A stretch of 64,000 nucleotides of DNA from the NCBI GenBank assembly GCA_025449975.1, contig JANWIG010000047.1, forward strand, positions 22,083-86,082. The letters run 5' to 3'. Every line of letters begins with the position of its first letter. The first letter of the stretch is position 1. The notes beneath the pieces are model-generated. The model saw nothing but the letters and a program-made list of their open reading frames with translations, searched no databases and was not told the DNA's origin. The DNA comes from Thermoactinomycetaceae bacterium (lineage in GTDB: Bacteria; Bacillota; Bacilli; Thermoactinomycetales; Thermoactinomycetaceae). This document shows, in pieces, positions 11,580 to 62,612 of this stretch. Both the position numbers and the translations under genes were made by a program.

Positions 11580-12461
11580 TTAGTATCCAAGCATCTGTCT
11601 TTCTTTCTCGCGCCTCTTTTGAATTTTGGCATATTTGATTAGAACGGGAATCGCGGTTTCTACTAGTCTCGTAAAAGTTTTATAGGATTTGCTTCTTCTT
11701 GGCGAACGAAATGGACAGTAGAAACCGCCTTTTTTCGTCCGCTCGACCGTTGCGATCTGTGATCCGTCTTTAAACAAGGTAGCAAATAAAACTTCACGGG
11801 CGATCTTCAAAACGCCCGCTTCTTCCTTACTTCCTTTTGTAATTCGTTGCCAAATTTTTTCTACATAGTGGATCGTCATCACGACCGACTCGTCTTCTTC
11901 CTCTTCCCATTTCGGCTCTGGCACATGCTCGATCACATCAGCTTGGGCTTTTCCTAGCGTAAAGGTCTGTAACTCCACAGCAATTCCCCCGATCTCCTCC
12001 GCTTGATCCATTTCTTCAATTACCGGAGGGACAGGGAGAGACTCGGTAAGAGGAGGCTCTTTCTTTTCCTCTTGCTGCACGCTTGTCGGAAGAGGAACCT
12101 GTTTCACCTCTTCCTCTTGATGGACTATAGGGGAAGGATCGGAACTTTGCAATTTAGCAATCATCTCTTTTAAGCGTTCATTTTCTATTTTTAAAGCTTC
12201 TCGCTCGCTTTTCACTTCTTCATACGCTTCTCGCAAAGTTTTAATCGTTTTGGTCAGCTCTGTTGTAATATCAACCGGCTTTCGCTCATTAATAAATTGT
12301 TTTAGATGATTAAGATCGACTCGCCACCCTTCTTTGCGATTGGTAGAGCGAACTCCCTTCAGTTTTCCCTCACGAAGCCACCGTCGAACCACTTGATCAC
12401 TTTCCGTAATCCCTTCATTTTTCAATAGCTCCAGCGCTTCTTGGACGGTCAACCACGTCAT
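11580..12461 (-). CDS. MerR/excisionase-like DNA-binding protein with coiled coil; unknown role
   Basis: I do not recognise this 293-residue protein. Residues 1-60 look like a winged helix of the excisionase/MerR type: MTWLTVQEALELL...VVRRWLREGKLKGVRS..GWRVDLNHLKQFI. Residues 65-108 are a heptad-rich coiled coil. A Pro/Glu-rich acidic linker follows to about residue 195. The C-terminal ~95 residues form a basic, probably folded domain (HYVEKIWQRITKGSKEEAGVLKIAREVLFATLF...). ATG at 12461 is chosen because AGAGGG directly abuts the track's TTG start. It is divergent from the tyrosine recombinase. The intergenic DNA holds a TTGACT-17-TAATAA promoter reading into this gene and a composite palindrome. 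Confidence 0.7.
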   Translation of the reverse strand: MTWLTVQEALELLKNEGITESDQVVRRWLREGKLKGVRSTNRKEGWRVDLNHLKQFINERKPVDITTELTKTIKTLREAYEEVKSEREALKIENERLKEMIAKLQSSDPSPIVHQEEEVKQVPLPTSVQQEEKKEPPLTESLPVPPVIEEMDQAEEIGGIAVELQTFTLGKAQADVIEHVPEPKWEEEEDESVVMTIHYVEKIWQRITKGSKEEAGVLKIAREVLFATLFKDGSQIATVERTKKGGFYCPFRSPRRSKSYKTFTRLVETAIPVLIKYAKIQKRREKERQMLGY

Positions 12462-12558
12462 ATTGTTCAACCCTCTTTTTTAATAAAAATAGTTTTATTA
12501 TTATTATTAAATATTGGTAATATAAAAGTCAATACATTGGTGCAAGTCTTGAATTTTG

Positions 12559-12581
12559 GTTTGTAAAACAAACTAGTTTGA
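12559..12581. promoter_or_regulatory. Composite palindrome, copy 1
   Basis: GTTTGT-AAA-ACAAACTAGTTTGA holds two overlapping inverted repeats (GTTTGT-N3-ACAAAC and CAAACTAGTTTG). It lies between the divergent HTH gene and tyrosine recombinase. A TTGTAA-16-TAAAAT promoter-like pair on the plus strand overlaps it. The same 23-bp element, identical at 20 positions, recurs at 62590-62612. Confidence 0.6.
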
Positions 12582-12780
12582 GTAAAATTTTCCCCTCCAT
12601 TCTGTTTCTTTTGTCCTTCTATCGAAAATGGAATAAATAGTGTATGATGGAAGATAGGTAAGATTTACCGATTTGCCTGCACCTCATTCCCATTGAGTTC
12701 CCTTTTATCTCGCTTGTGTTCACCTCGGGAGTGGTCGTAAAGAGACGCAATTCAAATAAGTGGAACGGAGGGACTGCTCA

Positions 12781-13860
12781 ATGCTTGAATCAGCCAACTT
12801 TTCACGCCGTCTATCTGAAAATATTCGTCGGATTATCAGTAAATTTCCTGAAGAAGTACAAGAATTTTTTTGGGAAATGATCAGTGCAGATCGCTCAGAG
12901 CAAACGATTGCCAATTATGCCTATGATTTTGCTTTATTTTTTGATTATTTAAAGATTCGTAACAAAAATATCTATCAAGTAGATCCATTTACGATCAAAC
13001 GATTTTTTCGCTTCATTGAAAACGGATACGAACGTACGGTTCAAATAAAAATTTCCAAGCAAGATCCGACGACTGGAGAGTACGTCGAAGAATGGATTGA
13101 GCGCAAACACTTTCGTGAAAACTCACGAAGTGGAAAACAACGAAAAAGAGCTTCTCTTCGCTCTCTTTTTCGTTTTTTGGTTAAAACGCATGTTTTGGAA
13201 AGAGATCCGATGGAAGAGTATGAAGACTCCACTCTCCGTTCGCGGAGCCGCCAACGCGTTCCTGTTTTCCTTACCAGAGAGGAAGCATTGCGCTTAATCG
13301 AAGCGATTCCTGCCTATCATGCCAAGAAAAAACACAAAAGTTGGCTAGAAGAGCGGGATTTAGCAATGATCTTAATGTTACTCAATACAGGTATGCGGGT
13401 ATCTGAGTTAATCAATCTTAATTTAAACAGTATTCAATCAGACGGAGAAACTCTTCGCGTGATCATTATCGGGAAGGGTGGAAAAGAACGCATGTTAAAG
13501 CTAAACAACAAAGCGGTGCAAGCCTTGCAAGCTTATTTAGCTGTACGTCCTACGCCCGCCGATCCGAAACATCAAGACGCTCTTTTTTTAAATAAAAACT
13601 TCGGGCGGATCAGCCGGAAAGCAGTCTCCGAAATGGTAAAAAAGTATGTACGCGTTGCCAAGTTACCACCTAAATCCGCTTCGATCTCTCCACATAAACT
13701 CCGCCATACGCTGGCTACTCTGCTCTTAGCCAATGGCGAAAATTTACGTGTGGTACAGGAAATTTTAGGGCATTCCAGTATTCAAACCACACAAATCTAT
13801 ACACATGTGATCAATTCCGAGAAAGATCAAGCATTGGACCGATTAGAGCAAATGATCTAA
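12781..13860 (+). CDS. Tyrosine recombinase of the XerC/XerD type
   Basis: The 359-residue site-specific recombinase has an N-terminal SAM-like DNA-binding domain (DRSEQTIANYAYDFALFFDYL) with an insertion around residues 85-125 compared with XerC/D. The catalytic domain holds Arg in GMRVSELINL, Lys in IGKGGKER, HKLRHTLAT, LGHSSIQTTQIYTHV (His and Tyr), so all catalytic residues are present. ATG at 12781 follows GGAGGG; the track's upstream GTG would place the ribosome-binding site inside the gene. It is directly upstream of lexA. It could be a chromosomally fixed paralogue rather than the dif recombinase; no dif-like site was identified. Confidence 0.88.
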   Translation: MLESANFSRRLSENIRRIISKFPEEVQEFFWEMISADRSEQTIANYAYDFALFFDYLKIRNKNIYQVDPFTIKRFFRFIENGYERTVQIKISKQDPTTGEYVEEWIERKHFRENSRSGKQRKRASLRSLFRFLVKTHVLERDPMEEYEDSTLRSRSRQRVPVFLTREEALRLIEAIPAYHAKKKHKSWLEERDLAMILMLLNTGMRVSELINLNLNSIQSDGETLRVIIIGKGGKERMLKLNNKAVQALQAYLAVRPTPADPKHQDALFLNKNFGRISRKAVSEMVKKYVRVAKLPPKSASISPHKLRHTLATLLLANGENLRVVQEILGHSSIQTTQIYTHVINSEKDQALDRLEQMI

Positions 13861-14752: not shown

Positions 14753-15013
14753 ATGGACTACGATCTCTACTATGAACTGGATGAGTCCCATGAAGGTCTC
14801 TTTGATGATGAAGAGGACTTCGATGAATATGAACTCATGCAACGCGACCACTGGCGACGCCGCCACCACTACCATCCTCCCCACCACCGCAGACGCAGAC
14901 GTCGCCGTCGTCACCGCCGACATCACCACCATCACCACCATCCTCATCATCACAGACATCATTGGCATTGGTATCACTACAGTTTACTTAATCCCGATGA
15001 TGATCTCTACTAA
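14753..15013 (+). CDS. Small acidic plus His/Arg-rich protein, possibly spore-associated
   Basis: The 86-residue protein is encoded behind a near-ideal AGGAGGTG site. Residues 1-31 are acidic (Asp/Glu/Tyr). Residues 32-74 are almost only His and Arg, with runs such as RRRRRRRRHRR and HHHHHHH. The C-terminus returns to acidic (NPDDDLY). No fold is predicted by eye. The His run could bind metal, and the two-faced charge could drive self-association or DNA/polyphosphate binding. Arg/His-rich proteins of this kind occur in spore coats, which fits the organism, but nothing proves it. Two other frames here are long only because of codon bias. The excellent ribosome-binding site and own terminator argue it is real. 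Confidence 0.7.
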   Translation: MDYDLYYELDESHEGLFDDEEDFDEYELMQRDHWRRRHHYHPPHHRRRRRRRRHRRHHHHHHHPHHHRHHWHWYHYSLLNPDDDLY

Positions 15014-52778: not shown

Positions 52779-52961
52779 CTGAGGGTCCCCTTTCTATTGG
52801 GAGCACCCTGGGAAAGAGGAAAAACAATGTCTTCTGTCTCCGTCCCAAAGGCTCGAAGCAGTTGATAAATGAAATAGAAAGAAAAAGAAGTAAGTGTAGC
52901 TCTCAGAGAGATGCCACCTTACCTCCTTTTTAGATTACAAGAAAACATATAGTTAATGCAA
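52779..52961 (-). promoter_or_regulatory. panBCD promoter and ~146-nt leader
   Basis: On the minus strand TTGCAT-18-TAATCT (52932-52961) would start a leader of about 146 nt. Almost at once AAAGGAGG is followed by the minimal ORF GTG GCA TCT CTC TGA, then a CTCTC/GAGAG hairpin. I do not recognise a riboswitch. A leader-peptide or unknown RNA element is possible. Confidence 0.45.
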
Positions 52962-55206: not shown

Positions 55207-55400
55207 CTTCTCCGTTACGAAAAACTTATAAAACTCGATCAGAGTTTCTGTTTTCTTCCTGATTCATCGTGTCCTGCCTCGCCACTTATACGTTATTACT
55301 GTTTGATGTAACACTCCACAGGCGTAATTTTCCGTGTAACTCACGGTACCGATTCGCATCAACTTGTGGATGACTAGGATCCTAATTTTGTTTGGTTTAT
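55207..55400 (-). ncRNA. Possible reRNA-like scaffold / right end of a TnpB element upstream of cca
   Basis: Conserved noncoding tail, strand minus. It has CGGTACCGTGAGTTACACGG, CCTGTGGAGTGTT, AAGTGGCGAGGCAGGACACG and GGAAGAAAAC, then the hairpin GAAACTC-TGATC-GAGTTTT. The same blocks occur in the 46.9-kb remnant although the adjacent tnpB reading frames are broken. IS605-family right ends encode the guide-RNA scaffold for TnpB; the guide here would be the cca leader. Transcription is not shown. Confidence 0.45.
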
Positions 55401-61583: not shown

Positions 61584-61614
61584 AAACAACGCAGAAAGAC
61601 ACCCTGCGTTGTTT
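61584..61614. terminator. Shared terminator of ypjC and ypjB
   Basis: AAACAACGCAG / CTGCGTTGTTT with a 9-nt loop lies between convergent genes and touches the ypjB stop codon. Confidence 0.8.
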
Positions 61615-62422
61615 ACATTTTCGATGCTTGAACCAAACGTTCTTCTGCTTGATATTTCCGCCAAGCGACATAAGTGAGGACGATTAAAATAAAGCTGCTG
61701 ATCCAAAACATCATCCAATAAAACGGTAAACTGCCAAAAGGAGCGATCGCTGCCATCACATCTTTATCAGAGCCAAAAAAGAGCGGTTGCAAAATCTTTT
61801 CCAACTCATTAAAGGCGGACTGAACCATTTGCGGACGATCGGTTTTTTTAAGTGCTGCAAACAGTGAATCCAATTTTTGTACCGTCTGGTCACTTCTCCC
61901 GACGACAAGTGCGGGTCGTATCAGCTCATAGTTTCCAATTAGAACCCGAACTTGCTGTTGATAAGCAACATGATTCTCCTCTTGGATCGCTTGTTTCGCT
62001 TTCAGAAGGGGTTGATTAAGCGAATGGTAATACTGTTTCCATAGGGGTTGATACGAATGAGCGGCGGCATCAAAGGCAAGTGTCAACTTAGTGGCAGCTC
62101 CTTGTAACTTGGTTCGATTCGGAATGAGCCGATTGAGCTCTTGCTCCAATTCCAGAATCGTTTCGGACAATGTCCGAATTCCAGCAACATCCATATTTTT
62201 ATTGGAAAAATCCGCTGCCGAAAATTGTGTTGCTAGCTTAGCCAACTCTTCTTTGGCAGCAACCAGCTGTCCCCGTAAAATCCAATTACTAATTTTATTT
62301 GCCGATTTTGCCCAATCTTCCCGATAGAAACGATCATTCGCCTGCACGGTTCCAAGCATTCCGATAAATAGGATACAAACACAAAGCATCCCAAGGATCA
62401 ACCGAGATCGGATCAAGACCAT
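61613..62422 (-). CDS. ypjB: Sporulation protein YpjB-like
   Basis: The ~269-residue protein has an N-terminal signal/anchor (LILGMLCVCILFIGMLGTVQA), a large helical extracytoplasmic domain (residues 30-240) and a C-terminal membrane segment (FYWMMFWISSFILIVLTYVAW). Size, two-anchor layout and synteny match YpjB, a mother-cell sporulation protein of unclear role. AAAGGGGG directly abuts ATG 62422; TTG 62416 has better spacing and may be the real start. A composite palindrome lies about 170 bp upstream. Confidence 0.8.
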   Translation of the reverse strand: MVLIRSRLILGMLCVCILFIGMLGTVQANDRFYREDWAKSANKISNWILRGQLVAAKEELAKLATQFSAADFSNKNMDVAGIRTLSETILELEQELNRLIPNRTKLQGAATKLTLAFDAAAHSYQPLWKQYYHSLNQPLLKAKQAIQEENHVAYQQQVRVLIGNYELIRPALVVGRSDQTVQKLDSLFAALKKTDRPQMVQSAFNELEKILQPLFFGSDKDVMAAIAPFGSLPFYWMMFWISSFILIVLTYVAWRKYQAEERLVQASKM

Positions 62423-62589
62423 CCCCCTTTCTATTGATCTTTCAGTCAAACGGCTGATTTATGAATATTTTATAAATAATCTATTCGGGTTGTCCGTTGA
62501 AATATGTCTACCTTGTCCTGAATTTGTTTGCCCCCAGAAAGTAAAAAAAGGAATATTGAACTGCTTGCTCTTCCTAAGGGGAAAGGTTT

Positions 62590-62612
62590 GTTTGTGTTAC
62601 AAACTAGTTTGA
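62590..62612. promoter_or_regulatory. Composite palindrome, copy 2
   Basis: GTTTGT-GTT-ACAAACTAGTTTGA matches copy 1 (12559-12581) at 20 of 23 positions; only the spacer differs. A plus-strand GTTACA-17-TATAAT promoter (62596-62624) overlaps it but would read antisense into the duplicated gene. The same site lies upstream of ypjB on the minus strand. Confidence 0.6.

Follow-up and report, generated by a model that had tools for sequence, protein, structure and literature searches.

The 23-bp repeat that occurs twice in the window, the 64,000-nt stretch of Thermoactinomycetaceae DNA analysed here, is very probably the Ter-like site of a replication fork trap of the order Thermoactinomycetales, and we predict from sequence that its binder is a small HTH_34-family winged-helix protein whose own gene would be autoregulated. 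We also consider it probable that this would be a third, independently evolved chromosomal fork trap, formed by recruitment of an HTH_34 autorepressor whose operator was multiplied and polarised at the terminus. The class of function is known; the protein and the sites are new. Two unrelated fork-trap systems, Tus/ter and RTP/ter, have been described (Galli et al., 2019, PMC6549158), and the accessible parts of a 2023 and a 2026 review discuss only these two (PMC10331603, PMC13220808).

The repeat and its distribution across the order

Read directly from the window, the two copies are GTTTGTAAAACAAACTAGTTTGA (site 1, 12559-12581) and GTTTGTGTTACAAACTAGTTTGA (site 2, 62590-62612). The first-pass annotation had reported them as identical at 20 of 23 positions, and this is correct: all three mismatches fall within the N3 spacer, and the overlapping dyads, GTTTGT-N3-ACAAAC and CAAACTAGTTTG, are present. 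Its reading of the repeat as the target of a dimeric or cooperative binding protein appears right as well. With up to three mismatches permitted, sites 1 and 2 are the only copies in the window, where dinucleotide shuffles gave an expectation of 0.02 copies and no shuffle reached two; the repeat common to both places is thus not due to chance, and it is conserved in related genomes. An Rfam search gave no match at either site. The sites, the genes next to them and other features are listed in Table 1.

Table 1. Coordinates of the putative sites, neighbouring genes and other window features, and of the GC-skew maxima in four complete genomes
Feature	Position	Strand	Remarks
Putative Ter-like site 1, GTTTGTAAAACAAACTAGTTTG	12559..12580	+	exact match, profile score 32.0
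Predicted strong dyad of site 1	12559-12573	+	
Predicted third half-site of site 1	12574-12580	+	AT-rich flank to ~12586
Putative Ter-like site 2, GTTTGTGTTACAAACTAGTTTG	62590..62611	+	exact match, profile score 34.6
HTH_17 (PF12728) + coiled-coil protein	11580..12470	-	296 aa, MerR-like; adjoins site 1
Tyrosine recombinase (PF00589)	12760..13860	+	adjoins site 1
ypjB, Spore_YpjB (PF09577)	61613..62449	-	E 1e-40, 140 bits; adjoins site 2
86-aa ORF downstream of lexA	14753-15013		extremely His/Arg-rich (runs RRRRRRRR, HHHHHHH)
pan motif (Rfam match)	52830-52920	-	56.7 bits
RAGATH-18 RNA (Rfam match)	55256-55322	-	52.1 bits
GC-skew maximum, G011	1,344,087		minus/plus gap 1,314,915-1,361,880
GC-skew maximum, G030	1,636,108		minus/plus gap 1,624,755 to promoter site at ~1,685,131
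GC-skew maximum, G039	1,829,757		minus/plus gap 1,797,121-1,851,577
GC-skew maximum, G040	1,644,725		minus/plus gap 1,589,481-1,683,237

The genome from which the window comes (G000) is a 2.5-Mb draft in 70 contigs. A pattern search with three mismatches returned 12 matches, of which eight are good copies: the window's two on contig C47 (site 1 being C47:34641), two on C20 and four on C58, with an extra weaker copy at C58:61526. The good copies are non-coding except for C58:34182, which lies within a doubtful 91-codon ORF that has no homologues in the regions compared. In G000:C58:34100-35200, three sites stand 349 and 314 bp apart, and there are no convincing genes in this interval. The first-pass annotation had proposed a genome-wide scan, and had held that dozens of copies in coding regions, or a lack of conservation in related genomes, would speak against its claim; the scan instead found eight good copies, nearly all outside recognised genes, of a motif conserved across the order.

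We searched 60 related genomes for the motif GTTTGTNNNRCAAACTAGTTTR with one mismatch allowed. It was found throughout the order, whose members include Thermoactinomyces, Thermoflavimicrobium, Laceyella, Shimazuella, Kroppenstedtia and Melghirimyces; the 19 genomes that belong to the same class but not to the order had no match at this threshold. The reversed pattern, used as a control, matched nowhere in 61 of 61 genomes (one mismatch). A looser pattern, with position 17 free and two mismatches, gave 6-12 copies in most genomes searched, and yielded copies in the two genomes (G011 and G020) that had none with the strict pattern. Across the Thermoactinomycetales the consensus site, GTTTGY-NNN-RCAAAC-TNG-TTTR, occurs 3-12 times per genome, almost only near the replication terminus. 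In a profile of 35 sites, the full dyad GTTTGY-NNN-RCAAAC is followed by T-N-GTTTR and then by AT-rich sequence to position 28.

Multiple similar short copies, some of them clustered (C58:34182-34845), might also suggest a dispersed repeat, the end of an insertion element or a chance palindrome. We consider this extremely improbable: only ~22-28 bp are conserved while the flanks differ, the reversed-pattern control was empty, and both the polarity and the restriction to the terminus described below contradict it. Equally little speaks for a local regulator, as proposed in the first-pass annotation, in which the HTH protein encoded at 11580 binds both sites and links the recombinase with ypjB. 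Site 1 does lie in a divergent intergenic region beside this HTH_17 gene, but only eight of the 61 genomes have an ortholog of the protein, whereas the motif extends across the order; this makes the regulator implausible and the explanation built on it nearly negligible.

Polarity of the sites around the terminus

In contiguous genomes the copies are confined to ~120-260 kb. We counted orientations on every contig that holds both (at most one mismatch), and all 21 of these contigs, with 104 sites, have a single switch from minus on the left to plus on the right. With strands assigned at random, the chance of such an order is (n+1)/2^n per contig and ~10^-15 combined; because the genomes share ancestry, the counts are only partly independent and the true figure is less extreme. 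Off-pattern matches at two mismatches are few; they comprise overlapping shadows of the palindrome and one match in G041 at 278642. Both window sites are on the plus strand. Because gene order on their contig is inverted with respect to the left arm of G040, they obey the polarity rule.

The canonical Firmicute dif had no match at three or fewer mismatches in the order, and the termini held only weak matches with 8-9 mismatches. We therefore placed the terminus by the position of dnaA and by GC skew. In the complete genomes G011, G030, G039 and G040, dnaA lies at ~1 kb and the sites at 46-54% of the chromosome, and in all four the maximum of the cumulative GC skew falls inside the gap between the minus and the plus sites (Table 1). 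The sites are thus several, non-palindromic and set in two opposed groups around the terminus, which is how the sites of a replication fork trap are arranged.

The 366-aa tyrosine recombinase next to site 1 has been retained at the terminus by each of the four complete genomes compared, and it scores below the curated NCBIfam cut-offs of XerC, XerD and XerS. It may be an XerS-like single-recombinase system for dimer resolution with a dif of its own; it is a neighbour of the sites, outside the proposed trap.

The genes next to the sites tell a different story from that of the first-pass annotation, which had joined the recombinase and a sporulation gene through the repeat. The regions fetched contain 41 profile matches: convergent genes flank 13 of them, tandem genes 17 and divergent genes five, and the remaining six fall within modelled ORFs, which are mostly unconserved. 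Most neighbours vary from genome to genome, and the orientation of a site is inconsistent with respect to the adjoining gene and invariant with respect to the terminus; it tracks the replichore. The site beside ypjB, 141 bp from the start of that gene, is among the few kept in the same place by synteny (G000, G030 and G039), and ypjB is not thought to be its target. Sites 1 and 2 belong to a polarised set that spans the terminus, and are not mainly a regulatory link between two genes.

A candidate binding protein of the HTH_34 family

By comparing the four complete termini with that of G000, we identified a small gene that, in several of the termini compared, has one of the sites in its promoter. 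In G000 it lies at C58:61596-61937, outside the window and within the same terminus region. Its product, of 105-118 aa, is a member of HTH_34 (PF13601; 82.1 bits against a Pfam cut-off of 27, E 3e-23). The structure model is a confident winged helix with a long C-terminal helix (pLDDT 85.6), whose best match in the PDB is PH1061 of Pyrococcus (1ub9; E 1.4e-6, TM 0.77-0.87), and the region of the recognition helix is nearly invariant. Neither known terminator protein is an alternative binder: RTP (PF02334) and Tus (PF05472) were found in none of the 42 genomes of the order, with positive controls in B. subtilis and E. coli, respectively.

The HTH_34 protein is encoded in 38 of the 42 genomes of the order, and a single weak match was found among the 19 genomes outside it; the putative binder thus co-occurs with the sites, as a dedicated terminator protein would. 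The four genomes without it are G009, G023 and G028, which are near-complete and also have no array, and G034, a draft that is 67% complete. The first three represent either natural losses of both the array and the HTH_34 gene or an absence in family f2, and could serve as controls. One further genome carries a second HTH_34 copy beside the normal one (G019:C44:52717-53025; 53% identical), possibly on a different replicon.

In all 30 orthologs examined, a site is present 38-92 bp upstream of the HTH_34 gene in constant orientation, which places a site in the promoter of the putative terminator gene itself. TATAAT is the usual -10 hexamer. Because it lies within the promoter site in 13 of the 30 orthologs, autorepression of the HTH_34 gene through this site is likely. 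We likewise regard the winged-helix protein, on this co-occurrence and promoter arrangement, as the likely binder of the sites.

An HTH_34 protein with an operator in its own promoter could also be an ordinary transcription factor that represses several genes which happen to lie in the terminus. Its relatives in other phyla resemble autorepressors, and the overlap of the promoter copy with TATAAT suits this reading too. The sites of such a regulon would be expected upstream of the regulated genes and in consistent orientation to them. The sites found here are instead placed between convergent genes in 13 of 41 cases, are oriented to the terminus and not to the neighbouring gene, and mostly adjoin genes that are not common between genomes; we judge an ordinary regulon to be very improbable.

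HTH_34 proteins with ~45-60% identity to the candidate occur in Chloroflexi, Actinobacteria, Bacteroidetes/Salinibacter, Acidobacteria and archaea. The same operator stands upstream in 36 of 55 such distant loci (for instance GTTTGTGTTGCAAACCGGTTTG, and in archaeal form CTTTGTATTACAAAGTTGTTTG), 590-809 bp before the HTH_34 gene in 35 of these 36 and in front of a membrane-protein gene in most of the loci read; among shuffled upstream regions, none reached the operator threshold. Since the same operator precedes distant HTH_34 operons, the protein is tied to the motif without any assumption about replication. We also searched 14 of the distant genomes in full (3.5-11 Mb, one mismatch). The motif was confined to the HTH_34 operon in 12 (two of them with overlapping or adjacent copies) and was not seen in the other two at this threshold, while a member of the order searched alongside had seven matches. 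As far as motif matches go, this comparison shows that the many polar sites are special to Thermoactinomycetales. Outside the order, the homologues resemble ordinary autorepressors, and the HTH_34 protein of the order could be the same, in which case the polarity of the sites would have a separate cause.

Across loci L156-L210 (Chloroflexi, Actinobacteria, Salinibacter and archaea; e.g. L164, L169, L170, L173, L188 and L209) we observed a conserved two-gene operon in which a membrane-protein gene is paired with one for an HTH_34 regulator and which is preceded by the same asymmetric operator. The membrane protein is ~200-260 aa long, and the one tested had no Pfam match. Homologues of the HTH_34 protein from phages and plasmids are only distant (<50% identity) among the matches listed, and these matches lend no support to a plasmid origin of the trap.

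Predicted mechanism and comparison with known fork traps

We propose the following mechanism for the fork trap. About 5-12 copies of the site would flank the terminus and be directed outwards, minus on the left and plus on the right, and the HTH_34 protein, whose own gene in the region would be autoregulated through one site, would bind them. A dimer would sit tightly on the full dyad GTTTGY-NNN-RCAAAC, and a second, weaker contact would involve TNGTTTR, the third half-site, together with the AT-rich flank. In both arms the complete dyad faces forks that leave the terminus. A fork entering the terminus would meet the weak side first and pass, a fork leaving it would meet the strong dyad first and be stopped, and forks would therefore meet between the two arms. 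Physical binding, occupancy by two dimers and fork arrest are the inferred parts of this model. In B. subtilis, according to two reviews, a fork that meets the strong B part of Ter first is stopped and one that meets A first passes (PMC10331603, PMC13220808); the blocking face predicted here would agree with this RTP rule despite the different protein families.

Alternatively, by marking the terminus the HTH_34 protein might serve its folding, the translocation of DNA or sporulation, as terminus-organising or segregation sites would (MatP/matS, FtsK/SpoIIIE-orienting or RefZ-type), with no fork stop. Thermoactinomycetales sporulate, and position at the terminus and polarity would also suit a direction signal in such hosts. 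Motifs that orient translocases are short and occur in large numbers along the entire replichore; matS is a palindrome without polarity, and RefZ sites are found close to the origin. The sites described here are few, long, asymmetric, polar and contained within ~120-260 kb. Moreover, the gene of each known fork-trap protein carries a ter site in its promoter (PMC10331603), and a predicted autoregulated gene inside the array repeats this pattern. We therefore regard a role of this kind as unlikely and favour the fork trap.

Tus-ter and RTP-ter are each described as limited to a narrow bacterial group, with no meaningful similarity to each other and with a selective reason that is still debated (PMC6549158, PMC10331603, PMC13220808). 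Our literature search, with most subscription journals and preprints outside its scope, found no papers on a terminator in Thermoactinomycetales, on the site sequence or on PF13601. If the fork-trap reading is true, a third trap from another protein family has been kept across nearly a whole order, which would be strong support for repeated selection of this architecture, and it would provide a new case in which to test how forks are stopped from one side only by an asymmetric winged-helix complex. The one-site homologues of Chloroflexi, Actinobacteria and archaea would then be the likely starting point, and the comparison would show a transcription factor before and after its conversion into a replication terminator; the operator would already have been asymmetric in such one-site operons before it was multiplied around the terminus.

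The RTP-Ter system of Bacillus subtilis resembles the proposed trap in having several asymmetric sites on either side of the terminus, in two groups of opposite orientation. Each site consists of a strong and a weaker part, and the strong part faces the blocked fork (both predicted here); the protein is a small winged helix with a long C-terminal helix; and the terminator gene lies in the terminus and is autoregulated through a site (here predicted). The protein of the order differs in belonging to PF13601/HTH_34, with the RTP family absent and hhalign finding no similarity between the candidate profile and an RTP homologue (probability 0.2%), and its site differs in sequence and is ~22-28 bp long as compared to 32 bp for the RTP site. 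Tus-Ter of Escherichia coli likewise has two opposed groups of polar, ~23-bp sites around the terminus and a gene autoregulated via its promoter site (predicted here); Tus, by contrast, is a monomer of unrelated fold, whereas the candidate is a small winged helix with a dyadic site. The HTH_34 regulators, represented by 1ub9 of Pyrococcus, share family and fold with the candidate, and the homologues of other phyla have the same operator sequence before their own operon. In those phyla the operator occupies one place in the genome and the HTH_34 gene usually comes after a gene for a membrane protein; in Thermoactinomycetales, a site immediately precedes the HTH_34 gene and the terminus is surrounded by many polar sites.
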